Virus record (IMG/VR): IMGVR_UViG_3300032236_000548
Location: 40,656-104,655 of that record
Strand: one strand, 5' to 3'
From: a virus
Length of the DNA stretch: 64,000 nt
Both the position numbers and the translations under genes were made by a program. The notes under the pieces are model-generated. The model saw only the letters and a list, made by a program, of their open reading frames with translations. It did no database searches and was not told the DNA's origin. Below, piece by piece: positions 13,001 through 64,000 of the stretch; position 1 is the stretch's first letter, and each line of letters starts with the position of its first letter.

Positions 13001-16000
13001 AACAACGTTGCTGGAACTATTACTCCTGGACAGATTGTTACAGGAAATGGTTTTAACGGTACACAAACTGTTAGCAGTGTATCAACTAGTATCATAACCG
13101 GTACATCTAATATTCAAGCTACTATTACATTAAGTGCATATCCATCAAGTACTCCTAGCGGAACTATTACATTTGGTGGTGCAAACACTAACGGTTACTT
13201 ACAGATTGATCCAAACCCTGTAATCAATATTAGTGCTGTAGGTACCGGTGTAAGTGCCATGACTTATCAGAGCAATACATTAGAGACTGGTAGTACTACA
13301 AGTAAAATTGTTACATTTAACTTGCCATACAATTCATTGTATACATATCCTCCAGTCGACAGCTTCTTAACTGTTACAGGAAATGCCAATGCAAAGTATA
13401 ACGGTTCATATCAAGTAACTAGCTTTACAAATGCTAGCCAGTTAACTGTTGCATCGACAACTAGCTTGCAAGTTGGTATGGTTGTAAGTACCAGCACAAG
13501 CGGTGCGTTTATTGAAAGTTCAGTAACAAATCCAAGTGGTACTACAATTATTCAAAGTATTGATAGTCCGACACAGTTTACAGTTGCTCCAGCTATTTGG
13601 GCTCCTGTAGGAACTACTATCAACGCTATCTTAGTAGCCACTGTTGCAAGTATTACAATTTCCAATGCAGGTAGCGGATATACTAGTGCTCCAACAATTA
13701 TATTCAGCGGTGGTGGTGCGGCTAGCCAAGCACTTGCAACATGTAGTATTGTTAACGGCAGTATTAGCCAAGTTGTTTTAGTAAGTCCAGGTTATGGTTA
13801 TACTAGCGTTCCAACAATTACCTTAAGTGGTAATAGTGGTAGTGTATTCAACACTACAATTGGAACTAACTTGATAACTTTAAACTCAAGTGCTAACTTA
13901 CAAGTTAACCAAGTTATTATATTTGGCGGTAGTGTGTTTGGCGGTATTGTATCTGGTACACAATATTATATTGCTAGTATCAATGGTAACCAAATTACTA
14001 TTAGTGCAAGTACTGGCGGTGTTGGTATTATTACATTAACAACTGCAAGTGGTGCAGGTATGACATGGAGCACTCCAGGTAATGCTGTACTAACTCCAGT
14101 ATTAACAAGTAGTCCAACTGCTGTTGTAACCACACTAGCAGGTTCAGATGTTCTACAATTAAGTTTACTATATCCAACTGATCCAGGTACTAGCGGCAAT
14201 GCTACTGCTACTTCTAACGCAGTTGCTACTTTAAGCACTAGTTCAATTAACAGTAGCGGTGTATTAACAGTTGGAACTGTAAGCGGAACTGTTGCGGCTG
14301 GTATGGTGTTAACTGGTGGTCCTAACACAGGTTCAGGTATTGCTCAAATCAATTCATATGCTACTACTGCCACAAGCGGTAACGGTACTACTGTAACTAT
14401 TTCGTTCTCTGCACAGACATTTGTTCCATATGCAGTTGGCCAGACAATCTTTGTTTCAGGCGTAACTCCAGCTGGATACAACGGAACATATATCGTAACT
14501 GCGGCAACGACTAGCTCGGTTAGCTATACTAATGCAACTACTGGCGCACAAACTATTGCTGGTACTGTTGCAAGTAATGTCTACACTTATATTACTGCTA
14601 ATATTAGCGGTAGTGGTGCAGGTTCTACATGGCAAACTGCTACAAGTCAAGGTACTAACTTTACTGTTGCATCATCGACTATTACTGGCACTAACAACTT
14701 AGTAACACTAAGCTCTAACACTAACGTTAGTGTTGGTAACACGATTACATTTGCAGGAACAGCATTTGGTAATCTTAGCGTAGCTACTGTTAGTGCTGGC
14801 TCATTTGTAGTTGGTCAAACTTATACTATTACTAGTGTAGGTTCTAATACAACTACAACAACTACAACAAACTTTACACTAATTGGTGCTCCTAACAATA
14901 ACGTTGGAACAGTCTTTACTGCGACTGGCGCAGGTAGTGGAAGCGGCCAGGGATTGATAACATACTATATCACTGAAGTTATTGGTTCAAGTGTTGGTAT
15001 CAGTGCTGTCAAAGGCGGTACTAACGTAACCTTAACTGGTGCAACTGGTGCAAGTTTAACATACTACACTCCAGGATATACATTCGGTACAAGCTATACT
15101 GCAACAACATTTGGCAGTGTTTCAGGAACAGGTCCATACTTAGTTACTTTAAACATTCCAACAACAACTGCTCCTACTACAAGCGTATATTATTATGTTA
15201 GTGGTAACAGCAATGCATTGTATAACGGTTACTGGCAAGCAACAAGTAGTACTACAACAAGTATTACATTGAGCTATCCATATAACCCAGGTACTTATGG
15301 TATTAGTAGTATTACTACAGTTACTAGAGAAGCGACATCTGCTACTAGTTCAAGTTTAGGTCTTGCAAGACCATTCAATCCTAACTCAAGTACTACATTA
15401 CGTCTAGGCTACCCAGCAACAGGTGGCGCACAGATTACTGTTCGTATTAGTACTTGCCGTGCTACAGGACATGACTTCTTAGATATTGGTACTGGTGGTT
15501 TCATTACTACTAACTATCCAAACCAGATTTATGGTAACGCGGCTCTTAGTGCTAATGAAAGTAATGACGTTGTTGAAGAAACAACAGGTCGCGTATTCCA
15601 CGTATCAACAGACCAAAACGGTATCTTCCGTGTAGGACGCTTCTTCAAAGTTGACCAAGGTACTGGTACAGTTACATTCAGTGCTAGTATTGCGTTGAGT
15701 AACTTGGACGGTTTAGGATTTAAGCGTGGTGTTGTTGTAAGTGAATTCTCAACAGATCCTTACATGACAGAAAACGCCGCCGACGTTGTACCAGTACAGT
15801 CAGCAGTTCGTAGCTTTATGGACTACAGATTAGGTTTAGACTACGGTGGTAGTCCAGTTCCAACATCTGGTTTAATTGGCCCAGGATTCTTACCACTGAA
15901 CGGTGTGTTAAGTATGAAGGGTAACTTAAACATGGCAAGTTACACAATTGGTAACTTAACAATGCCAGTTAGTAACGTTACACAGTACGATGCGGCTAAC

Positions 16001-18037
16001 AGAGGTTATGTAGATGCTAACGCAACTGCATTGAATAACTTATACAAATTAAACGATGTAGCTACTGGTGCTATTGCAACTTATGTAAGTTTCAGTAGCG
16101 TAGGAAATACTGTAACATTGCAAGGTGTTTATGGTACTATTGTTCCAGGCATGGTTATTAGTGGAACTGGATTTAGTGGTGGACAAGTTGTTTTAAGTGT
16201 AAACATAACACCGGGTGCAACTTCAGCAATTGGTGGTAGCGGTACTGTTACTCTAAACGGTCCATATAACACTACTCCTAACGGTGTATTAACATTTAAT
16301 AATCTTGCAAATGGTAACTTCATTGTTTACGATTCAACATTTAATCAATGGACTAACATTGTTCCGCCAACTGGTACAAGTAATAATAACCAAGTTGCTA
16401 TTACATACACCCATGGAACTCCAGGATATTTGACTGCAACTATTCAACCAGGTGTTATTGTTAACTCAATGGTTAGTACTAGTGCGGCAATTGCACAAAG
16501 CAAGTTAGCATTGCAACCTGCAACTGCACAACCTGCAGGACAAAGTTCTTATGTACAAAGTACATTAGGCCTAAGTAGCTTCAACAATCAAGTGTTTACT
16601 TCAACTAATGGTTGGATTAATTTAGCTCAAGCTAATAGTGTCACTGCTACTTACGTGTCAGGCGGTACTTCAGGTACTACAATGACTGTGTCTAGTACAA
16701 CTAACATTGTACCAGGAATGATTGTAACTGGACTTGGTTTTACAAGTTATACACAAACTGTTGTTAGCGTTCCTAATGGAACTACACTTATTCTAAGTGC
16801 TGTTGCTGACGGAGTTCCAAGTGGTACATTACAATTCTCAAATAGCGGTATTGGTTTAAGTTACTTACAACAAATTGGTACTGGGTACGTGTTAGGTAAC
16901 AGAAGCGGTATTTCTGCAAGCCCACAATTAATTACTCCAGGTAACATTGTTGCTGACGGTGATGGTTTGAAGAATGCATTGTTCAGCATACCAAATACTG
17001 TTAGTTCAAACGTTAACGCAGTAGCAATGCTAGCATTGTATGACGGTGCAACTACTACAAATAACCAATACGGTGTTATCGGTATTACTACTACTGGTGT
17101 TGCTAGTAAGTTAGTTAAGACTGGTTCTGATGGTTCAATTAGTGCGGCATTGATTAACGTAGGTGGCTACAAAGCAATTACATCTAGCGGTAGTACAATT
17201 AGTTTCTACACACCTGGACAGTTCTCATTCATGAGTAGTCAGGACGTTAGTGGTAGTAGTACAACTACTATCAACGGTGTGTTGAATGCGGCTGGTACAT
17301 TAATTACAACTACACTTGAAACTGGTGCTAGTGTTGCTACTACAGGTACAATTACTGGTCAATGGAGTTTAGGTGCGTTAAGCTCAATTAACGCAAGTGC
17401 TGGTACATTACAGTCTAACAACCTAACATCTGGTAGTGCAAGTACAGCTGGTACATTTACTGGTTTGTGGACATTTGCTCAAGCTACTACAATGTCAAGT
17501 AATTTAACTGTTAATGGCACTATTGTAACTCCAACAATCAGCAGTCCAACAATTAGTGGCGCTATTACAACTACTAATATCACAACAGGCGATGCGTATA
17601 CTGCTGGTACTATTACTGGTGCATGGAGCTTAAGTGCTAACAGTACATTACAAGCTACTTACGCTGACTTAGCTGAGTATTACGAAGGCGATGCACAGTA
17701 TGAGCCGGGAACTGTTTTAGTGTTTGGCGGTGACAAAGAAGTCACAACAACTGACATGATTAATGATACACGTTCAGCTGGTGTAGTAACAACAAACCCA
17801 GCGTATGTAATGAACTCAGAACAAACTGGTATTAAAGTTTGTCTAGCACTTGCAGGACGTATTCCATGTAAAGTTGTAGGCCGTGTTAAGAAAGGAGACA
17901 TGTTAACTACAAGTGCTACTCCTGGATATGCTGTTAAAGCATTGACTCCAACACTAGGTGCTATTATTGGTAAGGCATTAGAGGATAAAGACTACGGCGA
18001 GGCCGGAGTAATTCAAATTGCTGTAGGGAGAGCATAA
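4070..18037 (+). CDS. giant tail fibre/adhesin, 4655 residues
   Basis: One uninterrupted frame of about 14 kb. The N-terminus (NDGTGDSIRTSFNKVNQNF) is a module shared with the proteins at 18037 and 27547 and probably attaches the fibre to the tail. The body is Ser/Thr/Gly/Asn-rich and made of repeats. One family has the pattern Y..C.RD.GYI+DA..YDL.YGGN; copies, some degenerate, lie near residues 460, 524, 783, 927, 1121, 1353, 1587, 2263 and 2404. Two beta-rich families also recur. Residues about 1940-2150 (ITIYVESGIYYEDYP and VTIRGDDF) look like a beta-helix. The end (ATYADLAEYYEGD, then LAGRIPCKVVGRVKKGDML) resembles the C-terminal domain of phage appendages related to peptidase G2; self-cleavage there is not shown. 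Confidence 0.85.
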   Translation: MTQQIIDIGIQGNDGTGDSIRTSFNKVNQNFTEIYAIFGAGGSIKFGNLADAPGSSTFTIVSASGNGTQATLNFANPNPGLGLPFSIGQNIVITGTLPSGYNGAYTVTNATPTSVTFANTTTAAITQTGKIAGTAYSSNQVIMASTTGNSLTARDIVGINGITIDASDNNQLIIGSNSGGLITDPQPTLGTHMNADQFIIGNLADPDPSLVTQFNAVFASKGYTTTIGQMAVTVNYANNHYLQVTNGQVVGPLRVRAQPTVAQTNDPDYDPTLSGNYVSTEAIQRKDAILRSGDKMAGTLTLSDHPGSMAGAGTPNGADDLQAATKFYVDNNTHYSNVNLYVSTGGDDTQRKTPLGREGRAPQYAYKTVGAAALQAQNLINLSFTEPGPYRQTVAYTIGPSQYTSSVTSVSFSGGNSGIQGYLDAASLLESNKTFIQNETLAYLNQKYVNTFTFDKTRYSNIISDIVDGVAYDLVLGTNFNSTTQASILFNAYNSDVVGNLSTIIAAIQNAESQILNYSYNTDNTRTYIGKVINALCYDLEFGSNFQSIQVGLGFKYANTGLETTPTVINTVATATSGTAIGTDSSISGTTLVVGGSVTGTFAVGMTLSGIGITPGTTITALGTGTGGAGSYTISTSYSGGLSHVRVTGVNNRITVSSTQSMVVGSAIVFTGTSFGNLIAGNTYYINSIPDSANITISSSFGGSDYSLATATGSMVANTTAPSEIASALTNLANQITLLPAVSSTPSIVNSINAILKNISDIIVTGTLPAPTYPPVTTGTGFSYNSAKCARDVGLIVNAVLDDIIFNTNYRSLTAAFAYLRSYSNVVTTSQKAQTIAGINNARDQIIALVSSNNAAVTAITGKFGIITTIINNVSASGAPSVSFTNPGNTAVGIVNGAAELQSNRQFLIDETIAYVKANLSPNSIPLYDETSCRRDTGYIVDALTFDLLYGGNSATVVAADAYFNGVTSTISQETTAVASAFTHLQAIIGNIIQANTSWTKTTGNVTNQSTVVGVGSPAAASTVSTLLGYVIAIVNGGTSAGPAVIAPTYANGVNYSSYSSVQTTILSSLTSIESNVITFLNETYVSSTGQVSAVNLLLNNINFIQAEIVAYLLANYPTVTYNKATCQRDVKYIIWALCYDITYGGNSQSIYAGLQYWINNAYQIAGYEQAATVSAIGYLGTIAQNIVQNQTPVKLYQTGVIQYANTTLSGGSVATSSINTNIGTIQSIVASSSQPSVSVTYPTTSAVASTLTTAVAAITADTTTLESNAITYIDTNFPVLNNSIQKTTITNLFNTVTNILNGGIGSRTRPTYATTGFSSSIVQAQSAILANIDFITAETNAWINSQYPGVTYDPVASARDLSFVLEAIVYDITYGGSAATTQAANQYYANGVAQLVTGLPSVCSAALNHALNVTQNVVSNSLVTPSAGNYITTTGASGDGVNVTITFAPQATPPYSIGQVIAIQGVTPTGYNTNNGAGVTVTNCTTTSVTFASTASGAQTIAGKITKQVLNSSWTQSYAQSAVVNTLFGIVTGVIGSNSVATPVYPVITSYDNALQATFGIITNNTYTISNNVVTYLTNTFSGGFSYNEATCYRDLGYIIDGQVIDLLTDGTYQSITAGKSYYKNVSAKAIAIGSQYSETVDGIQFAQQLAIQVLNQTVQTRYQTLISQVTDNTKNATVGTNVATGTFVSNTTTTLTLTSITGVIVPGMVITGTGFTNSTPVTITSILNSSTVSISAAPAGTPSGTITLTATPVTTLNANMNTIISIINGGVGAAPTPSFGSGYYTVTFSNGGNGYVDQGQAGSNHIIPGKILVGDTSSSYGQIVSYVPGVSSNNDTVTLNMTRPGFFAYIPTTATATAGSTTLTVTATSYTTAFNSTSNIVVGLGVTGVNIPLGATVTAIIGNTVTISTPTLGILTSSNVVFGELLDFGETVSEQNITIYVESGIYYEDYPIKLSANVTIRGDDFRRTIIRPLNRISQSPWRNVFFYRDTIIDGMQLGLINFSGTDYAAATGSGATLSGTTGNITITLTTGQASPTWIGKVIVDQTSETGIAGKAVINTVSGNVMNCTVVYPFAAVITYPSGSWHMYDTINYGRHYLTNPSLPESPSNPALNNKLMDVFLTNDANRVKLITCQGHGGFMMVLDPEGQIKTKSPYAQESASFSGSINRKRFAGGQFIDGFAGRLFGTITGVSNSGYTITVTGSTNSGLDVRAPQTPCAFYVQGNRYQINNVLSYNNTTATVVLGLDTSTPFYPSATYSNSLLYSNIASVVDGISYDMAFGSNYQSIKTGITFLQPANSVVGLSESIITQSFSYVATQINALPGVDSPGKTAINNNVTIINNIINNGIFGNSTAGIPTVVFPNPANVTANVSNAKLLLQANKAFIQAEVVARVSANYNVGGFAGYSALTLSNNIGFAIDAITYDLLYGGTSSVYDVAQWMYFPALATLYTAAMGYLGTVAGQIVQKTNVTRTNGNTLFQVTTGYTAATSTQATTITSLCAVLADYTTDGTFGSSTRTLPTVSSTTTTSSLATDFNNIQTAKSTLQSTTITYANNGSGIVINIEMGGNKSMLANDFTQINDLGYGILCTNAGLTEQVSTFTYYCYTAYWALNGGQIRSVAGSNSNGVFGLRGTGSDVTELPNAVNLAYNMVQSARVYKQGAYSTAMQPTSTQQALTVYITNWEYLPAGTSELEIDHTLAGGGIARYEISTVAHTPVNVNGQNVLSLTLSTSGNNQTSASGLQYALYDGQIVTIRVLSNIKFYNISNVKPVRPSTALQYSNNLASIYRIIAYNLTEATGEALPAHQSLLQMDTSFAYYKFVVDTTNMYNADPSVYITLGTVALSPASTIGTTLYVVTSSLTNGAPVVGQYVGGYGYQNCVVTNVTTSGANTVITTSTPPSVAPVGNVWFSTTTMGAQVGDNKIAVLQISDTATISQLNSGTYVFGWAGRTHRVISYVVPQTIASGSFGTGSTSSYTLVVNNVAGTITPGQIVTGNGFNGTQTVSSVSTSIITGTSNIQATITLSAYPSSTPSGTITFGGANTNGYLQIDPNPVINISAVGTGVSAMTYQSNTLETGSTTSKIVTFNLPYNSLYTYPPVDSFLTVTGNANAKYNGSYQVTSFTNASQLTVASTTSLQVGMVVSTSTSGAFIESSVTNPSGTTIIQSIDSPTQFTVAPAIWAPVGTTINAILVATVASITISNAGSGYTSAPTIIFSGGGAASQALATCSIVNGSISQVVLVSPGYGYTSVPTITLSGNSGSVFNTTIGTNLITLNSSANLQVNQVIIFGGSVFGGIVSGTQYYIASINGNQITISASTGGVGIITLTTASGAGMTWSTPGNAVLTPVLTSSPTAVVTTLAGSDVLQLSLLYPTDPGTSGNATATSNAVATLSTSSINSSGVLTVGTVSGTVAAGMVLTGGPNTGSGIAQINSYATTATSGNGTTVTISFSAQTFVPYAVGQTIFVSGVTPAGYNGTYIVTAATTSSVSYTNATTGAQTIAGTVASNVYTYITANISGSGAGSTWQTATSQGTNFTVASSTITGTNNLVTLSSNTNVSVGNTITFAGTAFGNLSVATVSAGSFVVGQTYTITSVGSNTTTTTTTNFTLIGAPNNNVGTVFTATGAGSGSGQGLITYYITEVIGSSVGISAVKGGTNVTLTGATGASLTYYTPGYTFGTSYTATTFGSVSGTGPYLVTLNIPTTTAPTTSVYYYVSGNSNALYNGYWQATSSTTTSITLSYPYNPGTYGISSITTVTREATSATSSSLGLARPFNPNSSTTLRLGYPATGGAQITVRISTCRATGHDFLDIGTGGFITTNYPNQIYGNAALSANESNDVVEETTGRVFHVSTDQNGIFRVGRFFKVDQGTGTVTFSASIALSNLDGLGFKRGVVVSEFSTDPYMTENAADVVPVQSAVRSFMDYRLGLDYGGSPVPTSGLIGPGFLPLNGVLSMKGNLNMASYTIGNLTMPVSNVTQYDAANRGYVDANATALNNLYKLNDVATGAIATYVSFSSVGNTVTLQGVYGTIVPGMVISGTGFSGGQVVLSVNITPGATSAIGGSGTVTLNGPYNTTPNGVLTFNNLANGNFIVYDSTFNQWTNIVPPTGTSNNNQVAITYTHGTPGYLTATIQPGVIVNSMVSTSAAIAQSKLALQPATAQPAGQSSYVQSTLGLSSFNNQVFTSTNGWINLAQANSVTATYVSGGTSGTTMTVSSTTNIVPGMIVTGLGFTSYTQTVVSVPNGTTLILSAVADGVPSGTLQFSNSGIGLSYLQQIGTGYVLGNRSGISASPQLITPGNIVADGDGLKNALFSIPNTVSSNVNAVAMLALYDGATTTNNQYGVIGITTTGVASKLVKTGSDGSISAALINVGGYKAITSSGSTISFYTPGQFSFMSSQDVSGSSTTTINGVLNAAGTLITTTLETGASVATTGTITGQWSLGALSSINASAGTLQSNNLTSGSASTAGTFTGLWTFAQATTMSSNLTVNGTIVTPTISSPTISGAITTTNITTGDAYTAGTITGAWSLSANSTLQATYADLAEYYEGDAQYEPGTVLVFGGDKEVTTTDMINDTRSAGVVTTNPAYVMNSEQTGIKVCLALAGRIPCKVVGRVKKGDMLTTSATPGYAVKALTPTLGAIIGKALEDKDYGEAGVIQIAVGRA

Positions 18038-54365: not shown

Positions 54366-57035
54366 ATGTCTTATGTAGACGCATGGTTTGACCGCGAGAA
54401 CGACATCGTTAAAGTGGTTGAACGCAACAAGAAAGGCGATAGGGAATTTAGAGACATTCCTGTACGCCATACATTTTATGTAAAAGACCCACGCGGCAAA
54501 TTTCAATCAATCTATGGAGATGCACTAACACGCATTGTCTGTAAGAACACAAAAGAACTACGCAAAGAACAAGCCATTAACAGTGGCAAGGAAATGTTTG
54601 AATCAGACATTAATCCAATCTTTGTAACATTAAGTGAAAACTATCTTAATCAAGATGCTCCAAAATTAAATGTAGCATTTTTCGATATTGAGGTAGATTT
54701 CGATCCAGAGCGAGGCTATGCTAGTCCAGACGATGCATTTATGCCAATTACTGCGATTGCAATCTACCTACAATGGTTAGAGACTATGGTATGTTTAGCA
54801 ATTCCGCCTAAAGGTTTAAAGATGGAAAATGCTAAGGAAATGGTTAAAGAATTTCCTAATACTATGTTGTTTGATAACGAAGCAGATTTACTAGATACGT
54901 TTTTAGATTTAATTAAAGACGCAGATATTATTAGTGGTTGGAATAGCGAAGGCTTCGATATCCCGTATACTACTAACCGCGTTACAAAAGTTTTAAGCAA
55001 AGAAGATACTAGACGTTTTTGTTTGTTTGATCAGTTTCCAAAAAAACGTGAATACGAAAAGTTTGGTCGTCAAAGTACAACATACGATTATATCGGTCGT
55101 GTACACTTAGACTATCTAGAGCTATATCGTAAGTACACATATGAAGAACGCCATAGCTATCGACTAGATGCTATTGCCGAATATGAACTAGGCAAACGTA
55201 AAACACAATACGAAGGCACTTTGGATCAGTTATACAACAATGACTTTAAAACATTTGTTGAATACAACATCAATGACTGTAAACTGCTTGACGATTTAGA
55301 CAAGAAGTTAAAGTTTATGGATCTTGCCAATACGCTGGCTCATGAAAATACAGTATTGCTCCAAACAACTATGGGCGCAGTTGCGGTTACTGAACAAGCT
55401 ATTATTAACGAATCTCATCGCCGAGGTTTTCAAGTTCCTAATAGAACTAAAATGAGCGAGCGTGAAGAAAATACTGCGGCCGCTGGTGCGTATGTTGCAT
55501 ATCCTAAAGAAGGCATACACGACTGGATTGGATCTTTAGATATTAACTCACTGTATCCATCAGCTATTCGTGCGTTAAACATGGGTCCTGAAACTATTAT
55601 CGGTCAGCTTCGTCAAACAATGACGGAAGAGTTTATTGAAGCACAGATGGCAAAGGGCAAATCATTTGCGGCTGCATGGGAAGGTATCTTTGGATCATTA
55701 GAATACACAGCAGTAATGGAACAAGAAATTGGAACTGACATTACTATTGACTGGGAAGATGGTTCTAGTGATATTCTAAGTGCCGCAGAAGTATACAGAC
55801 TTATTTTTGAAAGTAACCAGCCTTGGGTACTCAGTGCGAACGGAACAATCTTTACTTACGAGAAAGAAGGTATTATTCCTGGACTATTAAAACGTTGGTA
55901 TGCTGAACGTAAAGAGATGCAGGCCAAATTAAAAGAAGCAATCAAAGCTGGTAATAAGATTGAAGAAGAATACTGGGATAAACGACAACTAGTTAAGAAG
56001 ATTAATTTGAACAGTTTGTATGGTGCTATTCTTAACAGCGGCTGTCGCTTCTTTGATAAACGTATTGGTCAAAGTACGACACTTACTGGTCGACAAATTG
56101 TTCGTCATATGGCAGGTAAAGTAAATGAAATCATTGCTGGCGAATATGATTATCGCGGTAAGGCAGTTATATATGGCGATACGGACTCTTGTTACTTTAC
56201 AGCCTATACTACTTTGAAGAAAGATATCGACAAAGGACTTATTCCTTGGACTAAAGAAACTGTTATCCAACTATACGATACTATCGGAGAAGAAGTTAAT
56301 ACTACGTTCCCACAATTTATGTTGGATACATTCCATGTACCTAAAAGCCGCGGTGAAGTTATTAAAGCAGGACGTGAAATTGTCGGTAGTAAGAGTTTGT
56401 TTATTACTAAAAAACGTTATGCTGTTCTTTATTACGATAAAGAAGGCAAGCGTACTGACGTTGATGGCAAACCAGGCAAGATTAAAGCCATGGGCTTGGA
56501 TCTAAAACGTTCAGACACTCCTGAATTTATTCAAGACTTCTTAAGTGAAGTGTTGGAAATGGTACTTATGGGTAAACCTGAACAAGAAGTGTTGGATCAT
56601 ATTAGCGAGTTTCGTATGAGATTCAAGGGAAGACCAGGTTGGGAAAAAGGTTCGCCTAAACGTGCTAATAAAATTACCGAGTATAACGGTAAAGAAGTCA
56701 AGTCCGGCAAGACTAACATGCCTGGACACGTTCGTGCAAGTATTAACTGGAACACACTAAAGCGTATTTTCGACGACAAATACTCTATGAGTATTACTGA
56801 CGGTGCTAAAGTTATTGTTTGCAAGCTCAAACCTAACCCACTAGGCTTTACTAGTGTAGCATATCCAGTGGATGAGCTACGTTTACCACAGTGGTTTAAG
56901 GATCTACCGTTCGATCATGCAGAAATGGAACAGACAATTATCGATAATAAGTTAGAAAACTTAATCGGTGTATTGAAATGGGACATTGCTAGTACTGAAG
57001 AGAAGAACACATTTAACAGTTTATTCGAGTTCTAA
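54366..57035 (+). CDS. 43: family B DNA polymerase (gp43-like)
   Basis: An 889-residue replicative DNA polymerase like T4 gp43 (898 residues). The exonuclease motifs are FDIEVD at 106-111, SGWNSEGFDIPY and YNINDCKLL. The polymerase motifs are DINSLYPS from Asp392 (motif A), KKINLNSLYG (motif B) and YGDTDS at 603-608 (motif C), so both proofreading and synthesis sites are intact. It ends NTFNSLFEF, a likely clamp-binding tail as in T4. It has a GGAGAAG ribosome site beside a hairpin that may be a self-repression operator. Confidence 0.97.
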   Translation: MSYVDAWFDRENDIVKVVERNKKGDREFRDIPVRHTFYVKDPRGKFQSIYGDALTRIVCKNTKELRKEQAINSGKEMFESDINPIFVTLSENYLNQDAPKLNVAFFDIEVDFDPERGYASPDDAFMPITAIAIYLQWLETMVCLAIPPKGLKMENAKEMVKEFPNTMLFDNEADLLDTFLDLIKDADIISGWNSEGFDIPYTTNRVTKVLSKEDTRRFCLFDQFPKKREYEKFGRQSTTYDYIGRVHLDYLELYRKYTYEERHSYRLDAIAEYELGKRKTQYEGTLDQLYNNDFKTFVEYNINDCKLLDDLDKKLKFMDLANTLAHENTVLLQTTMGAVAVTEQAIINESHRRGFQVPNRTKMSEREENTAAAGAYVAYPKEGIHDWIGSLDINSLYPSAIRALNMGPETIIGQLRQTMTEEFIEAQMAKGKSFAAAWEGIFGSLEYTAVMEQEIGTDITIDWEDGSSDILSAAEVYRLIFESNQPWVLSANGTIFTYEKEGIIPGLLKRWYAERKEMQAKLKEAIKAGNKIEEEYWDKRQLVKKINLNSLYGAILNSGCRFFDKRIGQSTTLTGRQIVRHMAGKVNEIIAGEYDYRGKAVIYGDTDSCYFTAYTTLKKDIDKGLIPWTKETVIQLYDTIGEEVNTTFPQFMLDTFHVPKSRGEVIKAGREIVGSKSLFITKKRYAVLYYDKEGKRTDVDGKPGKIKAMGLDLKRSDTPEFIQDFLSEVLEMVLMGKPEQEVLDHISEFRMRFKGRPGWEKGSPKRANKITEYNGKEVKSGKTNMPGHVRASINWNTLKRIFDDKYSMSITDGAKVIVCKLKPNPLGFTSVAYPVDELRLPQWFKDLPFDHAEMEQTIIDNKLENLIGVLKWDIASTEEKNTFNSLFEF

Positions 57036-57036
57036 T

Positions 57037-57813
57037 ATGGAAATTATAATTGCAGGATACGGATTTGTCGGCAAAGCAGTAAGCGAGGGTATTAAACATG
57101 CTCATACTACTTGCATTGTTGATCCAAAATATACTACAGCCGAAATAAAACACTTTCCAATGGCTGATGGCATTGTCATTTGCGTAGGAACGCCTAGCGA
57201 TCCTACAGGCGATTGCGATGTTAGTCAAATTTATAGTGTTTTAGACGATACACCTATACATATACCAGTACTAATCAAGTCGACTGTTCCTCCAGATTAC
57301 TTGGAAAAGATTATGACAACATACAAAGATCATAGTATTTGTTATAGTCCTGAGTTTTTACGTGCGGCTACTGCTAATGAAGACTTTGCAAATCAAACAT
57401 ACATGGTGTTAGGTGGTGACGATCCAGAAGGCTTTTGGCATTCTGTGTTTCAATCCGCATTGCCTAACTGTAAAGTAATCTTTAATACTAGTATCACCGA
57501 AGCTAGTATGATCAAATATGCTACTAATTGCTTCTTAAGTGTTAAAGTAACCTTTTTTAATCAGCTATACGATACATGTAAGCAAAATGGTGCAGATTTT
57601 AACCTTGTAAGACAAGTACTACTACACGATAAACGTATTGGTAACAGTCATACTATGGTGCCTGGTACAGATGGAACACGTGGTTTTGGCGGCGCTTGCT
57701 TTCCAAAAGACACAAACGCATACATGTTATATTCAGATCGAGTAAATCAATCGCATACATTGGTCGAATCGGCAATAAAATATAACAAGAAAATAAGAAA
57801 AACATTGACATAG
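57037..57813 (+). CDS. UDP-glucose/GDP-mannose dehydrogenase-like, short form
   Basis: A 258-residue protein starting one base after the polymerase stop. It has the NAD-binding start MEIIIAGYGFVGKAV, the block CVGTPSDPTGDCD, KSTVPP, the Lys161/Asn164 pattern MIKYATNCFL and the catalytic Cys221 in GFGGACFPKD. These fit a nucleotide-sugar 6-dehydrogenase, which oxidises UDP-glucose to UDP-glucuronate. Normal members have 390-450 residues; the C-terminal UDP-binding domain is missing. It may use another substrate or be regulated differently. It sits between the polymerase and clamp genes. Confidence 0.85.
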   Translation: MEIIIAGYGFVGKAVSEGIKHAHTTCIVDPKYTTAEIKHFPMADGIVICVGTPSDPTGDCDVSQIYSVLDDTPIHIPVLIKSTVPPDYLEKIMTTYKDHSICYSPEFLRAATANEDFANQTYMVLGGDDPEGFWHSVFQSALPNCKVIFNTSITEASMIKYATNCFLSVKVTFFNQLYDTCKQNGADFNLVRQVLLHDKRIGNSHTMVPGTDGTRGFGGACFPKDTNAYMLYSDRVNQSHTLVESAIKYNKKIRKTLT

Positions 57814-57832: not shown

Positions 57833-57852
57833 AAGAAAACATGGAGAATCAT

Positions 57853-58584
57853 ATGAAAGACTTTTTACAAGATTTAGTATCACATACACACAGCCTGGGC
57901 TTTTTGCCTTTGGTAAAGATTTCGGCAAGCGAAAAAGAAACCGCTATCGAATCAATGGCTGAAGACCGTAGTGTTATTCTAAATGCAAAAACACACAATC
58001 CAGTAGATGCATTGGAAGGAACATTTGGTATGCCTAACTTAAACAAGCTAGACATCCATTTGAAGTGTCCAGAATACAAAGAGAACGCAACTATTAATGT
58101 TGTTAAGCAACAGCGCAATGGTGAAGATGTTCTTACTGGCTTACACTTTGCTAATAACACAGGCGACTTTGAAAACGACTATCGTTTTATGAGTTTGGAA
58201 GTTATTAACGACAAACTTAAGACTGTAAAATTCAAAGGTGCTAAGTGGGATATTGAATTTAGCCCAAGTGTTGCTAGTATTCAAAAATTAAAATTCCAGG
58301 CGGCTGCTCATAGCGAAGAACAAACATTCCAAGTTAGTACAGAAGACAATAACTTGGTATTCAGCTTCGGTGATGCTAGTACACATGCAGGTAGTTTTGT
58401 ATTCCATAGCGGAGTAAATGGCAAATTGCGTCAAACTTGGAGTTGGCCAGTTGCACAAGTTCAATCTATTTTGAACTTGCCCGGTGATGTTACAATGCGT
58501 ATTGCAGATGTAGGTGCATTAAACATTACTGTAGATAGCGGCATTGCAGTTTACGACTACATTTTGCCAGCACAATCTAAATAA
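57853..58584 (+). CDS. 45: sliding clamp (gp45-like)
   Basis: A 243-residue protein near the length of T4 gp45 (228). The acidic N-terminal part, the LNKLDIHLKCPEYKENATIN strand region and the end ADVGALNITVDSGIAVYDYI, then LPAQSK, fit the trimeric T4-type clamp, which tethers the polymerase and activates late transcription in T4. The ATG at 57853 is chosen over one at 57841, because GGAGAATCAT lies before it, the same leader as at 34472. The next gene starts inside its stop (TAATG). Confidence 0.85.
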   Translation: MKDFLQDLVSHTHSLGFLPLVKISASEKETAIESMAEDRSVILNAKTHNPVDALEGTFGMPNLNKLDIHLKCPEYKENATINVVKQQRNGEDVLTGLHFANNTGDFENDYRFMSLEVINDKLKTVKFKGAKWDIEFSPSVASIQKLKFQAAAHSEEQTFQVSTEDNNLVFSFGDASTHAGSFVFHSGVNGKLRQTWSWPVAQVQSILNLPGDVTMRIADVGALNITVDSGIAVYDYILPAQSK

Positions 58585-58937
58585 TGAACATTGAACAGAT
58601 AGCTTACGCCACCATAGCATGGATGGTGCTCACATTTATAACATATACTCATTGTAGATGGAGTAACATAAAATCATGCTATGGCATGTGGTTTACAAAG
58701 GAGTACTGGACCAGTTATAATATTGTAGATGCGTTAAGCTGGTTAGCAAAAGCAATGATTATTATTCCAGGGTTAATCTTTGGAGTACAAATATGGCAAC
58801 TATATTGGATTGCGTTAATCACATCTGTTGCACTTATATGGGCAAGCTATAAAAGATTTAGTCCAACCGTAGTTGGCTTTAATACAATATGGTGTTGGAT
58901 TAGTTGCATGGTGCTAGCACAACATTTGGTAAAATAA
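58584..58937 (+). CDS. membrane protein, about four TM helices
   Basis: A 117-residue hydrophobic protein with likely helices at about 4-22, 48-68, 71-88 and 95-113 and few charges. It overlaps the clamp stop and the DpdA-like start (TAATG on both sides), so it is made together with them. Three Cys and many Trp are scattered without a motif. The function is unknown; its fixed place suggests that it belongs to the same module as the DpdA-like gene. Confidence 0.6.
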   Translation: MNIEQIAYATIAWMVLTFITYTHCRWSNIKSCYGMWFTKEYWTSYNIVDALSWLAKAMIIIPGLIFGVQIWQLYWIALITSVALIWASYKRFSPTVVGFNTIWCWISCMVLAQHLVK

Positions 58938-60643
58938 TGAATAAGAATTTAACAGCAACTCAAAACGATTATGCGTATTTCCTTCCAGCAACGTCTGGTT
59001 TCTTTAGTACATATATAGGAAAACAACGCTATAGCAACTACGTAGATCCTGCTCGCATTCCTGCGAGCTTTGGACATATGGGCATAGAAGCTATGAACTA
59101 CTTGAATCCTAATGCGGCATTTTACTTTGACCACTGTTTGTATTCAGCAGGTCATGCTAACTTAGATTTAACTAAACCTGATCCTAGTGAAGATATGTTT
59201 CGTAACAGAGACCGTTCAACTAGTTGGGTTTTAGGTGATTCAGGTGGATTCCAGATTGGTAAAGGTGTGTGGGCAGGTGAATGGAGAGATCCAACCGGGC
59301 CAGAAGTCGCGGCTAAATGGAAAGAAGTACGTGCTAAAGGTGTTGAACTTGTTCCACAATTAGATGCTACAGGCAATCCTAAGCTAGATAAGAATGGTAA
59401 TCCTAAAATGACTAAGATTGACCATGTTAAAAACTATCAAGCACAATTAGATGCGGCACAAAAGAAACGTGAGCAAGTGCTTGCGTGGATGGACGCACTA
59501 ATGGACTATGGCATGGTGTTAGATATTCCAGCTTGGGTCGAACGTAGTCCTGCCGGACGTGCGGCAACAGGTATCGAATCGTATCAACAAGCTGTCAATG
59601 CTACAAAATACAATAACGAATACTTTATTAAACATCGCACAGGTGCTTGTAAGTTCTTAAATGTGTTACAAGGCGAGAATCACGCACAAGCAGAAGATTG
59701 GTATCAGCAAATGAAAGACTTCTGCGACCCAACAAAGTATGATAATCCATTTAACGGTTGGGCAATGGGTGGACAAAATATGTGTGACGTGGATCTAGTA
59801 TTACGTAGATTAGTCGCATTAAAGTTTGACGGATTGCTAGAACAAGGTCATCAAGACTGGATGCACTTCTTGGGCACTAGTAAATTAGAATGGGCATTGT
59901 TGCTAACAGACTTACAACGTGCTATTCGCAAGTATCATAATCCAAACTTTACAATCAGTTTTGACTGTGCTAGTCCATTCCTAGCAACTGCTAATGGACA
60001 AATTTACGTTCAAACAGAAATTAAAGACAGAGAAAAATGGTTGTACAGAATGTTACCTAGTTTAGATAACAAGAAGTATAGTCAAGATACACGTCTATTC
60101 AAAGATGTTGTAGTACAAGATAAACACTTTACTAACTTTGAATCAAGTCCAATTATGGATGGTGTAGAAGTTAATAAAATTTGTATCTATGGACCTAACG
60201 ACCTAAATAAGATTGGTAAAGTTGGCAAGACTAGTTGGGATAGTTTTACGTATGCTATTATGATGGGTCATAATGTTTGGTTGCATTTGAATAGTGTACA
60301 AGAAGCCAATCGTCAATATGATGCCGGCCTATGCCCAGCTATGTTGGTAGATGAAAAGTTTGAACGTGTGTACTTCAAAGATGTAGTAGATGCTATCTTT
60401 AGTGCTCCAGACCGTGCAACTGCTAATGCCATTATCGATCATTATGACAAATTTTGGCAAGCTATTCCTGGAACACGTGGTGCTACAGGTAAGAAAACAG
60501 TTAATGCTAGTACAATGTTCTCCACATTGTTTGACGAAGAAGGTGCAGATACTGTACAATCAGAAGACGAACAAGAATTTGGCGAAGATGTTTCCGATAA
60601 ATTAGACGAACTAGAAGCAAGCGTACATGACATTACCCGATGA
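58937..60643 (+). CDS. dpdA: DpdA-like 7-deazaguanine DNA transglycosylase
   Basis: A 568-residue protein related to tRNA-guanine transglycosylase (TGT). The TGT motifs are kept: the acid/base Asp101 in WVLGDSGGFQIGKG, LNVLQGEN (TGT: GIVQGG) at 241-248, GWAMGGQ (GLAIGG) at 274-280, HFLGTS at 310-315 and the nucleophile Asp343 in SFDCASPFLATANGQ (FDCVMPTR.AR.G). The CxCxxC..H zinc site of tRNA enzymes is missing and the protein is longer, as in DpdA, which swaps guanine for preQ0-type bases in DNA. With QueD it points to a modified phage genome that resists restriction. A tRNA target is less likely. Confidence 0.8.
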   Translation: MNKNLTATQNDYAYFLPATSGFFSTYIGKQRYSNYVDPARIPASFGHMGIEAMNYLNPNAAFYFDHCLYSAGHANLDLTKPDPSEDMFRNRDRSTSWVLGDSGGFQIGKGVWAGEWRDPTGPEVAAKWKEVRAKGVELVPQLDATGNPKLDKNGNPKMTKIDHVKNYQAQLDAAQKKREQVLAWMDALMDYGMVLDIPAWVERSPAGRAATGIESYQQAVNATKYNNEYFIKHRTGACKFLNVLQGENHAQAEDWYQQMKDFCDPTKYDNPFNGWAMGGQNMCDVDLVLRRLVALKFDGLLEQGHQDWMHFLGTSKLEWALLLTDLQRAIRKYHNPNFTISFDCASPFLATANGQIYVQTEIKDREKWLYRMLPSLDNKKYSQDTRLFKDVVVQDKHFTNFESSPIMDGVEVNKICIYGPNDLNKIGKVGKTSWDSFTYAIMMGHNVWLHLNSVQEANRQYDAGLCPAMLVDEKFERVYFKDVVDAIFSAPDRATANAIIDHYDKFWQAIPGTRGATGKKTVNASTMFSTLFDEEGADTVQSEDEQEFGEDVSDKLDELEASVHDITR

Positions 60644-60887
60644 AAGATACCGTGCTGTAATGGCGGCAAAAGAATTGCTAGTGGATTTAACTGATCCAAA
60701 AGCAACTCCTAGGATTCCACAAATGATTCGGCTACGTGCTGGACATTGTTTGCGACACTTTCCTAGCGAGTGGGATATGGATCTTGCTAGTCGTGTTGCG
60801 CCTGAAGTGTTTGCTAAACGCATGGAAGATGTAACTCGTATGTTTATGAAATACGAACAATCAAAGGCAGAAAAAGATGAAAACTAG
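60627..60887 (+). CDS. BPSL0761-family protein
   Basis: An 86-residue protein. The opening TLPDERYRAVMAAKELLVDL and the later CLRHFPSEWDM match the small BPSL0761 family of Burkholderia and related bacteria (pattern T.P.ER.RAV...+EFL..L and LLRH+P). Function is unknown. It overlaps the DpdA-like gene by 17 bases and the next by 11. It may have come from a proteobacterial host. Confidence 0.7.
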   Translation: MTLPDERYRAVMAAKELLVDLTDPKATPRIPQMIRLRAGHCLRHFPSEWDMDLASRVAPEVFAKRMEDVTRMFMKYEQSKAEKDEN

Positions 60888-61764
60888 TCTTATTGTAGGA
60901 ATGGGTATTGGCAATTTATATGCTACTGTACTAGATAATCTTGGACATGGTATTATTACAGTCGATGCTGATCCTAGCAAAGGTGCAGATTTTACAAGTG
61001 TAGATGATGCTATTAAAGAAATTCGATTATTTGATACAGCGCATATATGTACACCAAATTTTACACACGAAGAAATTGCACGTAAACTCGCACCTGTAAC
61101 TAAAATTGTATTCATCGAAAAGCCAGGTGTTATAAATTCCACAGCCTGGCAACAACTAGTAGAAGATTTCAAATACACACGCTTTATGATGGTTAAGAAC
61201 AATCAATGGCGTAGTAACTTTGCAGATGTTAAAAGTATGTCAGATCGTGCAAAGACTGTTAACTTGCGATGGGTTAATAAAGATCGCGTTCCTAATCCAG
61301 GTAGCTGGTTTACTACAAAAGCATTATCATATGGCGGTGTTAGTAGAGATTTAATGCCACATTTATTGAGCTGGATGACTAAACTAGATACCAATTATAA
61401 ACATACAGAATGTGTTTTAAAAACACACCATCAACGTTGGAAGTTAGAAGATTTACTCACTACTGATTACGGTACTGTAAATCCTAATGGTACATACGAT
61501 GTTGATGATTTTTATTACCTCGAATATAAAAACAATGATAAACGTTGGTTGTTAACTGCCGACTGGCGTGGATTAGGAGATGAAAGAATACACATTCAAT
61601 TTATCTACCCAGATGACACATATGATATAGTCGAGCTTGGACTATGCCCCGAAGATGCTTATCAAAGTATGATTCAAGATGCTGTTGATCATGTTAACGA
61701 TCCTGCATTCTGGCTTAACCAATTAGAACAAGATTTGTGGATACACGAAAATATAACACTATGA
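60877..61764 (+). CDS. Gfo/Idh/MocA-type oxidoreductase
   Basis: A 295-residue protein of the NAD(P)-dependent sugar dehydrogenase superfamily. The nucleotide-binding turn is IVGMGIGNLY (8-13 Gly-rich), the EKP motif with the conserved Lys82 is at 81-83, and GGVSRDLMPHLLSWM is equivalent to the GG.l.D.g.H.ld active-site helix. Members oxidise or reduce sugars and cyclitols. The substrate is not predictable. It overlaps both neighbours and likely works with the next enzyme. Confidence 0.75.
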   Translation: MKTSLIVGMGIGNLYATVLDNLGHGIITVDADPSKGADFTSVDDAIKEIRLFDTAHICTPNFTHEEIARKLAPVTKIVFIEKPGVINSTAWQQLVEDFKYTRFMMVKNNQWRSNFADVKSMSDRAKTVNLRWVNKDRVPNPGSWFTTKALSYGGVSRDLMPHLLSWMTKLDTNYKHTECVLKTHHQRWKLEDLLTTDYGTVNPNGTYDVDDFYYLEYKNNDKRWLLTADWRGLGDERIHIQFIYPDDTYDIVELGLCPEDAYQSMIQDAVDHVNDPAFWLNQLEQDLWIHENITL

Positions 61765-62666
61765 AAGTAAAATGTTTACAGACAACAGGTCAAGGCTACT
61801 TTGAAGAAGTTGAATACGACAAACCTGATCCTGCTCCGCATCAAATAGAAGTGCGGGCAATTATGACCGGTGTTTGTCGCAGTGATGTTGATATGATGAT
61901 GGGCGAGTTTGGTCCGTTACCTTTGCACATGCAAGGCCACGAAGGCATTGGGCAAGTAACTCGTTTGGGGTCAGATGTAGTAACAACTAAAATCGGTGCG
62001 TATGTAGCAACACGCGGTGAACCAGCGTATGCAGATTATTACAATGTTCAAATGGATGAATATGTAGAAATTCCCGAAGCTGATCCTAAGTATATTTTAG
62101 AGCCAGTTGCTTGCGGTATTAACTTAATTAATCAAGCCAAAGATCAAATTGAACATAGACAAGGCAGAAATGAAAACACTAGAATGCTAATTATTGGCAG
62201 TGGGTTTCTTGCGTGGGTCGCTTACCATACTATGCGCCTAAATGGTTTTATCTATCATGTAGATGTACTAGGTCATAGCAATAAAGAGCTTTGGGGAGAT
62301 AAGCTAATTTCAAGTACTATTGAAAATTATGATGTGGTGGTAGATCTTAGTGGAAACTATGAGTTGGGTTTACAGATTAACCTAAATAATAACGCATTGA
62401 TTATCGATGGTGTTGGCAAAGCAGTTAGTAAACAAGAGGCCCAAGCTCAATTATGGAAAGCTGTTACCACTATCAAACCTAGTCCACGCAATCCAAAATT
62501 TATCGATTGTATGCACATGGCCAAATATTGGATTAAAAACGGTTATCTAGAGGTTGATTCGTTCTGGACAAAGTGTTACAATCGTAGTACAGAATGGGAA
62601 CAAGCGTTTGCGGACGGCGTTAATCGTCCGAAGGGTTATAGCAGAGGTTATATTAAATGGGGTTGA
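61761..62666 (+). CDS. zinc-type alcohol dehydrogenase (MDR)
   Basis: A 301-residue medium-chain dehydrogenase starting at an ATGA overlap. The catalytic zinc ligands are Cys39 in MTGVCRSDVD, His60-Glu61 in QGHEGIG and probably Glu114 in LEPVACGI. The structural-zinc four-Cys loop is absent. The Rossmann turn IIGSGFLAWVAYHT is at about 156-169. It is shorter than typical members (330-350). With the preceding oxidoreductase it could act on a polyol or sugar. The pair resembles no pathway I know. Confidence 0.75.
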   Translation: MKVKCLQTTGQGYFEEVEYDKPDPAPHQIEVRAIMTGVCRSDVDMMMGEFGPLPLHMQGHEGIGQVTRLGSDVVTTKIGAYVATRGEPAYADYYNVQMDEYVEIPEADPKYILEPVACGINLINQAKDQIEHRQGRNENTRMLIIGSGFLAWVAYHTMRLNGFIYHVDVLGHSNKELWGDKLISSTIENYDVVVDLSGNYELGLQINLNNNALIIDGVGKAVSKQEAQAQLWKAVTTIKPSPRNPKFIDCMHMAKYWIKNGYLEVDSFWTKCYNRSTEWEQAFADGVNRPKGYSRGYIKWG

Positions 62667-63172
62667 ACACTGACGAAAGACAGAACATTGTCTACTTTAC
62701 AGGGTACGAAGTTGAACATACTATTTGTCACGGTATGAAAACATTGTTTGTTGTAGGCACTCCCGATTTAGAAGACATTATATACAAAGCCAGACAAACC
62801 GAATGTAAGCATATTTACTTTGGTACAAGTCAGAGTTTTAATCCTAAATCAATATCGCAAGAAGAATATAAACCGTGGGATGATGTTATCCTAGGTTGTT
62901 TAAAGAATGACTACTGGGTGACTTTAGACTTTGGTGTAGAGCACACAGAAGGTGTCATCGAATCTGGTTATTCAGAATACCAGAAATTCGTTCCGATGAT
63001 TAGTGTAAAATTACCATACATTAATCAATTTAATTACAACGCCACACTTAAACTAGATGATCGCACTTGGGGTGCTACTAATCCAGGTGTGTGGACCCAT
63101 CAACTACATGATCTAATGAGTAAAGACAAATATACTTACTGGGATCAATATACACAAGATACACCAACATGA
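62657..63172 (+). CDS. conserved T4-like phage protein
   Basis: A 171-residue protein that resembles a conserved cyanophage protein (IVYFTGYEVEHTICHGMKTL, then FVVGTPDLEDI, and HIYFGTSQSFNPKSISQEEY). It has an alternating beta/alpha order suggestive of a small Rossmann-like fold and many aromatic residues. Its ends overlap both neighbours. No active-site motif was recognised. Confidence 0.65.
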   Translation: MGLNTDERQNIVYFTGYEVEHTICHGMKTLFVVGTPDLEDIIYKARQTECKHIYFGTSQSFNPKSISQEEYKPWDDVILGCLKNDYWVTLDFGVEHTEGVIESGYSEYQKFVPMISVKLPYINQFNYNATLKLDDRTWGATNPGVWTHQLHDLMSKDKYTYWDQYTQDTPT

Positions 63173-63564
63173 TTATTAAACAAGACATTCGCCCTAACAA
63201 GATGATTTGGGTTACCTTTCAGAAAGAAGGTATTCACTGCTATCCAGCGGCCGCAACAGATCCTAACCTAGCAACCGGAGATTATTATGACGTATCGTTT
63301 CTTGGCACTCCTCATCGCCATATCTTTCACTTTAGGGTTTGGCTTGGCGTTACCCACAATGACCGAGATGTGGAGTTCATTCAATTCAAGCGGTGGCTTG
63401 AAAGGTTGTATTCTAGCGAACAAGGTGTACTGTCGCTAGATTATAAAAGTTGCGAGATGATGAGCGATGATTTATATGCTCAAATCTCAGCAAAGTATCC
63501 AGACCGCGAGGTTTGGATTGAGGTCTCCGAAGACGGAGAAAATGGTTCATTTATCAAATATTAA
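63169..63564 (+). CDS. conserved phage protein
   Basis: A 131-residue protein starting in ATGA. The block GIHCYPAAATDP, then YDVSFLGTPHRHIFHFRVWL and DRDVEFIQFKRWLERLY resembles conserved T4-like phage proteins. The His-rich HRHIFHF segment could bind a metal. Function unknown. Confidence 0.65.
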   Translation: MIIKQDIRPNKMIWVTFQKEGIHCYPAAATDPNLATGDYYDVSFLGTPHRHIFHFRVWLGVTHNDRDVEFIQFKRWLERLYSSEQGVLSLDYKSCEMMSDDLYAQISAKYPDREVWIEVSEDGENGSFIKY

Positions 63565-63577
63565 AACAAGAGGCTAT

Positions 63578-63838
63578 ATGGCTAAAAATTACAAAGATTA
63601 TTCTTATTTCGAAAACCGTCCGGATGTCGTTAAGATTTTTGACGACTTAGAAGCGTTCCATGATTGGTGTCGTTTAGAGATGGCTCCGTTTGACGAAAGT
63701 CATTTGTACAATCGTGAAAGCTGGGCATGGCGCAATTTCGAAAAGAGTCGTCGTCCTAAGAAACCATTCAACGGCGAACGTAAACCTTACTTAGGTAAGA
63801 ACCCACGCTATAATAACAATGACCGTATTTCTAATTGA
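63578..63838 (+). CDS. small conserved phage protein
   Basis: An 86-residue protein starting at ATG 63578 behind AGAGG; the longer frame upstream is a shadow of the previous gene. The sequence is Asp/Trp-rich in the middle (FDDLEAFHDWCRLEMAPFDE, then ESWAWRNFEKSRR) and basic at the end (RRPKKPFNGERKPYLGKNPR). It overlaps the next gene by 20 bases. No function known; the basic tail may bind nucleic acid. Confidence 0.6.
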   Translation: MAKNYKDYSYFENRPDVVKIFDDLEAFHDWCRLEMAPFDESHLYNRESWAWRNFEKSRRPKKPFNGERKPYLGKNPRYNNNDRISN

Positions 63839-64000
63839 TCTAGAAGCTGTCGAGACAAGGTACACGGGCCAGTGGAAGGCTCATGTACCTCACCTCTTAC
63901 GAAAGGCAGGACACGATGTTCAAGTTATATGTGGGCCTACGGATATTCCTACAGCCACTACTCCTGGTGCTTTTCTTAATTTTGGTGGCACCAATATATA
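63819..64000 (+). CDS. N-terminal part of a conserved phage protein
   Basis: The frame opens at ATG 63819 and runs off the window, giving 60 residues. It starts MTVFLIDLEAVETRYTGQWK, then LLRKAGHDVQVICGPTDIPT and PGAFLNFGGTNIY. T4-like cyanophages carry a protein with the same start. The beta-strand, helix and GP turn suggest a Rossmann or glycosyltransferase-like fold, but too little is present to decide. Confidence 0.65.
   Translation, partial: MTVFLIDLEAVETRYTGQWKAHVPHLLRKAGHDVQVICGPTDIPTATTPGAFLNFGGTNI

Follow-up and report, generated by a model that had tools for sequence, protein, structure and literature searches.

The gene at 58937-60643 (+ strand) of the viral DNA analysed here quite probably encodes a member of a new branch of the DpdA enzymes, which would insert a 7-deazaguanine base made without QueC into phage DNA, where the base is perhaps then glycosylated. 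The stretch, hereafter the window, comprises 64,000 nucleotides from an uncultured freshwater phage (IMG/VR record IMGVR_UViG_3300032236_000548, positions 40,656 to 104,655); it is the final 64 kb of a record of 104,655 bases, and the end of the window is the end of the record. We are highly confident that the gene product is a DNA guanine transglycosylase, and we think it fairly likely that the inserted base comes from a QueC-free route.

The open reading frame (ORF) is intact, with an ATG start codon that overlaps the stop codon of the gene directly before it, and encodes a protein of 568 amino acids (aa). The protein has no match in scans of Pfam, PHROGs, NCBIfam and PADLOC, and a phmmer search against the PDB returned nothing significant. 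Because the family libraries are silent, the sequence-only reading that had proposed a DpdA-like enzyme here stood on motifs recognised by eye. These motifs are present as described (DSGGFQ, LDxP, LQG and SFDCASPF), and the zinc site CxCxxC is missing. The AlphaFold2 model of the protein (pLDDT 84.8, pTM 0.84) matches 16 PDB structures at E<=0.001 and all 16 are tRNA-guanine transglycosylases (TGTs) from Zymomonas, human and mouse (best 6.7e-8), with the first other fold at 3e-3. Its matches among viral models include R9TGF0 of Vibrio phage nt-1 (E=5.9e-8), which is as long as nt-1 DpdA2 (464 aa), the 'tRNA guanine transglycosylase' of Motura, and a protein whose 596 aa equal the length of the homologue in Vibrio phage 2.275.O. 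In profile-profile comparison with six DpdA2 proteins the active-site motifs align in register (E=3.7e-7 over 300 columns), while unrelated control families score 0.12 or worse against the DpdA profile and E. coli TGT matches more weakly than DpdA2 (E=0.0017). A grouping with the tRNA-acting TGTs would have counted against the sequence-only reading; judged by profile comparison it is not borne out, DpdA2 being the nearer. No profile similarity to the DpdA of phage 9g was detected with hhalign (E=0.41). A hidden Markov model (HMM) of the family matches DpdA2 of phage ACP17 (E=2e-5), has no match in 9g or Dp-1, and gives a partial match in CP220 (E=0.009) and no whole-length match in HVTV-1, the exact dpdA genes of these last two not having been pinpointed. 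The Campylobacter and haloarchaeal virus enzymes are reportedly DpdA3 and DpdA4. The tie to DpdA2 is seen by profile-profile and profile-sequence comparison only, with no tblastn link to nt-1 DpdA2 in either direction and no match to PHROG 10773. Together the profiles and the model point to an enzyme of the TGT superfamily that forms its own branch, nearest to DpdA2 of the groups tested and yet distinct from it.

The family is present well beyond chance, since hundreds of viral contigs encode it. Close relatives with 82-90% identity occur in 80 fetched viral contigs, and there are hundreds of further matches. The PA5oct group of Pseudomonas phages (30% identity, 98% coverage), Sinorhizobium phage Phosso (26% identity) and Vibrio phage 2.275.O (30% identity, partial) have more distant homologues. 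When the PA5oct or the Vibrio homologue was used as a single sequence to scan the viral contigs, there were no matches; an alignment query was required, and it added 80 loci that bridge the close and the distant homologues. The copies in named phages are annotated as hypothetical and have no family match, and neither the window protein nor three distant homologues match the Pfam TGT family. Across 56 diverse relatives the invariant residues are D101, S102, G104 and Q106 (DSGGFQ), D196 and P198 (LDIP), G246 (LQG), G274, H310, L312 and G313 (the HxLG block), and D343 and S346 (SFDCAS). By motif, D101, D196 and D343 correspond to the base-binding and nucleophile aspartates of TGTs. From 30 to 90% identity there is no variation in these aspartates or in the Gln/Gly motifs for base binding, as expected for catalysis. 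Among 165 family members, DSGG[FYL]Q is found in 164 and S[FY]Dx[AS]SPF in 160, and the CxCxxC zinc motif of tRNA-acting TGTs in none.

The sequence-only reading had also placed the enzyme in a phage with a 7-deazaguanine pathway, and this part held up, with FolE, QueD and QueE all found in the window or in close relatives. The QueD-like gene that it had noted at position 885 (885-1391, + strand) encodes a 6-carboxytetrahydropterin synthase of the PTPS family (PF01242, E=1.5e-14; PHROG 2389 'QueD-like', E=6.5e-35; below the NCBIfam QueD equivalog cut-off). QueD, as a PTPS match, is present in 10 of 11 records, that is, in the window's own record and in nine of the ten other DpdA-bearing records searched. 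FolE and QueE were each found in nine of the 11. The exceptions are the window's own record, which ends too early to include them, and one other (G007), where both were searched for and gave no match. The expected route through QueC to preQ0 fared differently. folE and queE turned up in relatives, beyond the point where our record ends, but QueC is absent from the relatives tested and a QueD-like protein, p131, is found in its place. No QueC (PF06508) was found in the complete genomes of PA5oct (287 kb) and Phosso (469 kb) or in contigs of 383 and 356 kb; it was found in Vibrio phage 2.275.O. A phage with three of the four enzymes, the fourth missing, points to a product that precedes QueC. 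Two other candidates for pathway enzymes were rejected. Five tandem PP-loop proteins upstream in the window's own record (locus L083, 2-6096) contain SGGxDS, lack the zinc motif C(x)8CxxCxxC and score below the QueC threshold. A radical SAM protein (L084, 8705-9634) considered as QueE has NrdG2 as its best family and lies far from dpdA, and the true QueE is in the operon of the relatives. The PP-loop set (about 13.9-20 kb of the record, G000) includes a Rieske-type protein and has a fatty-acid desaturase-like gene close by.

The gene for p131 (63169-63564, + strand) encodes 131 aa and matches PHROG 17812, a family of unknown function (E=2.5e-32). A comparison of p131 with a single QueD was too weak and a QueD family profile was used instead; hhalign then gives a match to phage QueD profiles (E=2.2e-5) that is limited to 43 C-terminal columns, compared with 0.058 or worse for 11 other families. 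A His...His-x-His triad is present in 119 of 120 members, and p131 appears to be a QueD-like T-fold protein. It has tblastn matches in 27 phage records and lies beside FolE, QueE or QueD in nearly all of those inspected, namely RHph_I1_18 (Rhizobium), Bakedbeans (Vibrio), Ahp1 (Aeromonas), D479 (Vibrio), BUCT-ZZ01 (Synechococcus), phiST (Cellulophaga), MA9V-3 (Chryseobacterium), ACP17 (Acidovorax), X1 (Xanthomonas), Phosso and PA5oct; in Faecalibacterium phage Roos its neighbours are unannotated. It accompanies DpdA2 in some phages and the window-type DpdA in others, and in ACP17 the genes form a single run, QueD-FolE-gp122-DpdA2-glycosyltransferase-p131-QueE. When 30 records were scored for both proteins, none of the 20 with p131 had a full-length QueC and all 10 without p131 had a QueC match over the cut-off (that of Marzo partial). 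Restricted to the named phage records, Fisher's test gives 1.5e-6, or 3.4e-5 with D479 counted as an exception; these records are not a random sample and are not independent of one another. Read most simply, the pattern means that p131 uses up 7-carboxy-7-deazaguanine (CDG) in QueC's stead. A CDG decarboxylase, DpdL, was reportedly predicted by Cui et al. 2023, who are also reported to have found dCDG and dDG in the DNA of phages; p131 is a candidate for this DpdL. p131 is also seen as the C-terminal domain of longer proteins (L193, 6212-7363; L198, 6395-7276), and in MA9V-3 it stands behind an endonuclease VII/HNH-like domain.

A further member of the gene set is a GT4/GT-B glycosyltransferase, which the earlier reader could not see as such since the record end clips the gene after its 5' 60 codons (63819-64000, + strand; 92% identical to the gene at 15498-16598 of a relative, L007). 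The model of this protein (pLDDT 89.5) has 91 PDB matches at E<=0.001, those listed being GT-B glycosyltransferases, with BshA, MshA and similar GT4 enzymes as the nearest folds, and the homologue in phage X1 passes PF00534. Sequence searches of the PDB with the DpdA, glycosyltransferase and p131 profiles gave nothing significant. The gene is present in 33/33 loci of the window clade and in about 33/35 of the other loci with enough flank. With 47% identity between the freshwater version and that of PA5oct, and 51% for Phosso, it is better conserved than the transglycosylase. In PA5oct it comes directly after dpdA (gap -1), in Phosso it and p131 overlap (gap -4), and in ACP17 it has DpdA2 on one side and p131 on the other. 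Given these associations, glycosylation of the base or of the DNA is plausible, and we put it forward tentatively, rating its chances somewhat short of even. In Erwinia phage Ep032 (L200, 328-8752), genes for a double acetyltransferase, Gat-QueC, a PIG-L deacetylase, a distant homologue of the glycosyltransferase and a Gfo/Idh oxidoreductase stand in a row, which by its gene content looks like an independent cassette for 7-deazaguanine and sugar tailoring. The window and Ep032 have Gfo/Idh oxidoreductases of one family, between which BLAST shows no clear similarity (E=0.015).

The genes of the window's operon all lie on the + strand and mostly overlap. The syntenic block begins with a family B DNA polymerase (PolB, 54366-57035, recognised from its sequence), which is upstream of dpdA in 155 loci with a median gap of 1.5 kb. 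It is followed by a short UDP-glucose/GDP-mannose dehydrogenase-like gene with NAD-binding and central domains only (57037-57813; PF00984, E=2.1e-20, and PF03721, E=2.1e-11), whose product is a possible sugar-donor enzyme, by a sliding-clamp-like gene (57841-58584; PHROG 12062, E=7e-38; 32% identity along its whole length to a protein of Phosso whose annotation is DNA polymerase III sliding clamp) and by a 117-aa ORF, then dpdA. Downstream of dpdA are an 86-aa ORF, a Gfo/Idh/MocA-type oxidoreductase gene (60877-61764; PF01408, E=6e-7), possibly for sugar tailoring, and a zinc alcohol dehydrogenase (ADH)-like oxidoreductase gene (61761-62666; PF08240, E=1.4e-9). The position of dpdA between a clamp and oxidoreductases, as given in the sequence-only reading, is therefore borne out by these matches. 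Next come a conserved 171-aa ORF without a family match (62657-63172; 136 loci at BLAST level), p131, a small conserved ORF (63579-63838; counterpart at 15260-15517 of L007) and the start of the glycosyltransferase gene. In relatives the operon continues past the glycosyltransferase with a 163-aa ORF, a phosphoribosyltransferase, FolE and QueE; FolE lies at a median of 4.8 kb and QueE at 7 kb past dpdA, both within 10 kb in close relatives. The synteny PolB-clamp-dpdA-p131-glycosyltransferase-FolE-QueE extends over up to 166 loci. The UDP-glucose dehydrogenase-like gene is found in 31/33 window-clade loci with enough flank, and 7 loci have it between the glycosyltransferase and FolE rather than beside the clamp. 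In Vibrio phage 2.275.O the dpdA homologue is two genes from QueF, followed by YhhQ, QueC and FolE.

Several side observations concern the neighbours of these genes. Right after the dpdA homologue, 2.275.O has an amidoligase-like protein (L087, 7723-8835; PF12224, E=0.00018, just under the cut-off), at the place where PA5oct has its glycosyltransferase. A xanthine/guanine phosphoribosyltransferase-like gene travels with QueE (L007, 18009-18530; L196, 2471-2932), and its product could salvage the guanine freed by a transglycosylase. A UvdE-type UV endonuclease gene (1464-2567) and a superoxide dismutase-like gene (2847-3407) lie near queD, and a protein resembling a TRAP-transporter solute-binding protein was noted by eye (L082, 11390-12334).

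From the computed fold, motifs, gene set, synteny and mutual exclusion of p131 and QueC, we infer the reactions, the base and the protective role described here. DpdA would cut the guanine glycosidic bond in phage DNA by way of a covalent aspartate intermediate (D343 by motif) and put a 7-deazaguanine base in the place of guanine. FolE, QueD and QueE would convert GTP as far as CDG, QueC not being encoded, and p131 would most likely act on CDG, perhaps by stripping the carboxyl group, so that the inserted base would be CDG, 7-deazaguanine or a derivative and not preQ0. The coupled glycosyltransferase may then add a sugar to the base or the DNA, and the modified DNA would withstand host nucleases. 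Protection against restriction, which the sequence-only reading had suggested, would match what is known of phages 9g and CAjan (PMC6884629) and is plausible on that ground. In a more specific form of this proposal, a widespread lineage of large phages, PA5oct and Paride, Phosso and freshwater phages among them, would have glycosylated 7-deazaguanine in its DNA. CDG from FolE, QueD and QueE would be processed by p131 without QueC, inserted by the new DpdA branch and decorated by the GT4 enzyme together with phage-encoded nucleotide-sugar dehydrogenases; this we regard as speculative, its chances being clearly below even.

Some of our data weigh against the main reading of a DpdA enzyme that inserts a QueC-free, perhaps glycosylated base. 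The Foldseek TM-scores to TGT are modest (0.34-0.52), which is in line with long insertions. FolE and QueE are missing from the window's own record and the pathway is read from relatives, and the window QueD lies about 58 kb from dpdA. Hosts could supply QueC, and D479 combines p131 with a partial QueC-like match (32.8 bits, model positions 133-201). If p131 is a decarboxylase, the 7-deazaguanine that it leaves has no obvious sugar handle, which would mean another role for p131 or another target for the sugar. The fold of the glycosyltransferase also matches a tetrahydrobiopterin glucosyltransferase, and the substrate of the enzyme might be a pterin or sugars of the host surface. We found no report on the DNA chemistry of these carrier phages in the literature searched, nor any of glycosylated 7-deazaguanine in DNA.

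The strongest alternative accepts a real DNA transglycosylase and regards the glycosyltransferase and the dehydrogenases as a separate module for surface sugars or a pterin glucoside, whose genes are mere neighbours. A generic GT-B fold that matches both BshA and the tetrahydrobiopterin enzyme would suit such a module, as would FolE and a PTPS, which are common to pterin synthesis too. The Gfo/Idh and zinc-ADH-like genes are almost confined to the window clade (each in 33/33 of its loci vs 2/35 others), and several p131 phages have no detectable glycosyltransferase. Against this, the glycosyltransferase follows the 7-deazaguanine genes across differing DpdAs (DpdA2 in ACP17 and X1, the window type in PA5oct and Phosso), its gene overlaps or abuts dpdA or p131, and in Ep032 Gat-QueC, the deacetylase, the distant glycosyltransferase homologue and Gfo/Idh are consecutive. 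We treat a separate module as a serious possibility, if a somewhat improbable one.

An ordinary dPreQ0 (or dG+) phage is an unlikely source of the same data. Here host QueC would turn CDG into preQ0 for insertion by DpdA, with p131 and the glycosyltransferase unrelated, and indeed the DpdA enzymes tested so far insert preQ0 or its derivatives (PMC6884629) and the 2.275.O relative retains QueC and QueF beside dpdA. However, p131 excludes full-length QueC over the 30 records and recurs in this cluster in distant phages, a strange pattern if the gene had no part in the pathway. Less probable still is a tRNA-acting transglycosylase that would alter the wobble base of tRNAs, be they from host or phage, in a queuosine-like manner during infection. 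Its appeal lies in the TGT fold with the full set of active-site motifs and in the PA5oct-like phage MIJ3, which has 12 tRNAs and a TilS homologue (PMC6892783). None of the 165 members has the zinc motif, though, and DpdA2 gives the nearest profile, well ahead of E. coli TGT; the DNA of nt-1, a carrier of DpdA2, contains dPreQ0 (PMC6884629). The gene is also flanked by the polymerase and clamp genes of replication on one side and by FolE/QueE on the other. An inactive TIM-barrel, degenerate or structural, that retained the TGT fold, for example as a DNA-binding replication accessory, would fit the hypothetical annotation of the named-phage homologues and their lack of family matches, but it is scarcely credible given the invariant aspartates and Gln/Gly motifs.

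A QueC-free DpdA branch would add to the 7-deazaguanine DNA machinery a transglycosylase lineage missed by the family libraries and by BLAST with nt-1 DpdA2, one present in hundreds of viral contigs and, annotated as hypothetical, in well-studied Pseudomonas jumbo phages. The exchange of p131 for QueC and the coupled glycosyltransferase lead to a testable prediction of a base other than preQ0, and the gene set gives a hint of protected phage DNA of a so far undescribed kind, which may carry sugar. If the sugar is real, phages would have a novel, bulky type of DNA protection, with a bearing on escape from restriction and CRISPR and possibly on a size mismatch in PA5oct. The DNA of that phage runs at 375 kbp in pulsed-field gels (PMC3936114), compared with a sequence length of 287 kb (PMC6892783); the mismatch fits a bulky modification and is no proof of one, terminal redundancy and gel error being other possible causes.

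Of the known systems, phage DpdA2 (the family of Vibrio phage nt-1 YP_008125322; PHROG 10773) is the most similar. Both are assigned to the TGT superfamily by profile and model, show the same succession of motifs (DSGG[FL]Q, aspartate-proline, QG, H-x-LG, S-[FY]-D), and occur in phages that encode FolE, QueD and QueE. They differ in that there is no BLAST-level link, in the greater length of the window family (500-570 aa vs 400-464) and in that QueC accompanies nt-1 DpdA2 and is missing with the window-type DpdA. The DpdA of phages 9g and CAjan (DpdA1) shares the proposed reaction and the pathway context; no profile similarity was detected, and the 9g cluster has Gat-QueC. Bacterial TGT/QTRT1 shares the fold and the active-site motifs; the window family differs from it by the lack of the C-terminal zinc motif, a weak profile match and a context of replication and base-synthesis genes. 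The reported system of a predicted DpdL and dCDG/dDG phage DNA is similar in its QueC-independent product of FolE, QueD and QueE, and p131 would be the obvious candidate for such a step; a coupled glycosyltransferase is not known from that work. The T4-type glucosylated hydroxymethylcytosine involves another base, and a sugar on 7-deazaguanine is so far a prediction, but a sugar placed on a modified base after replication would work in the same way in both.
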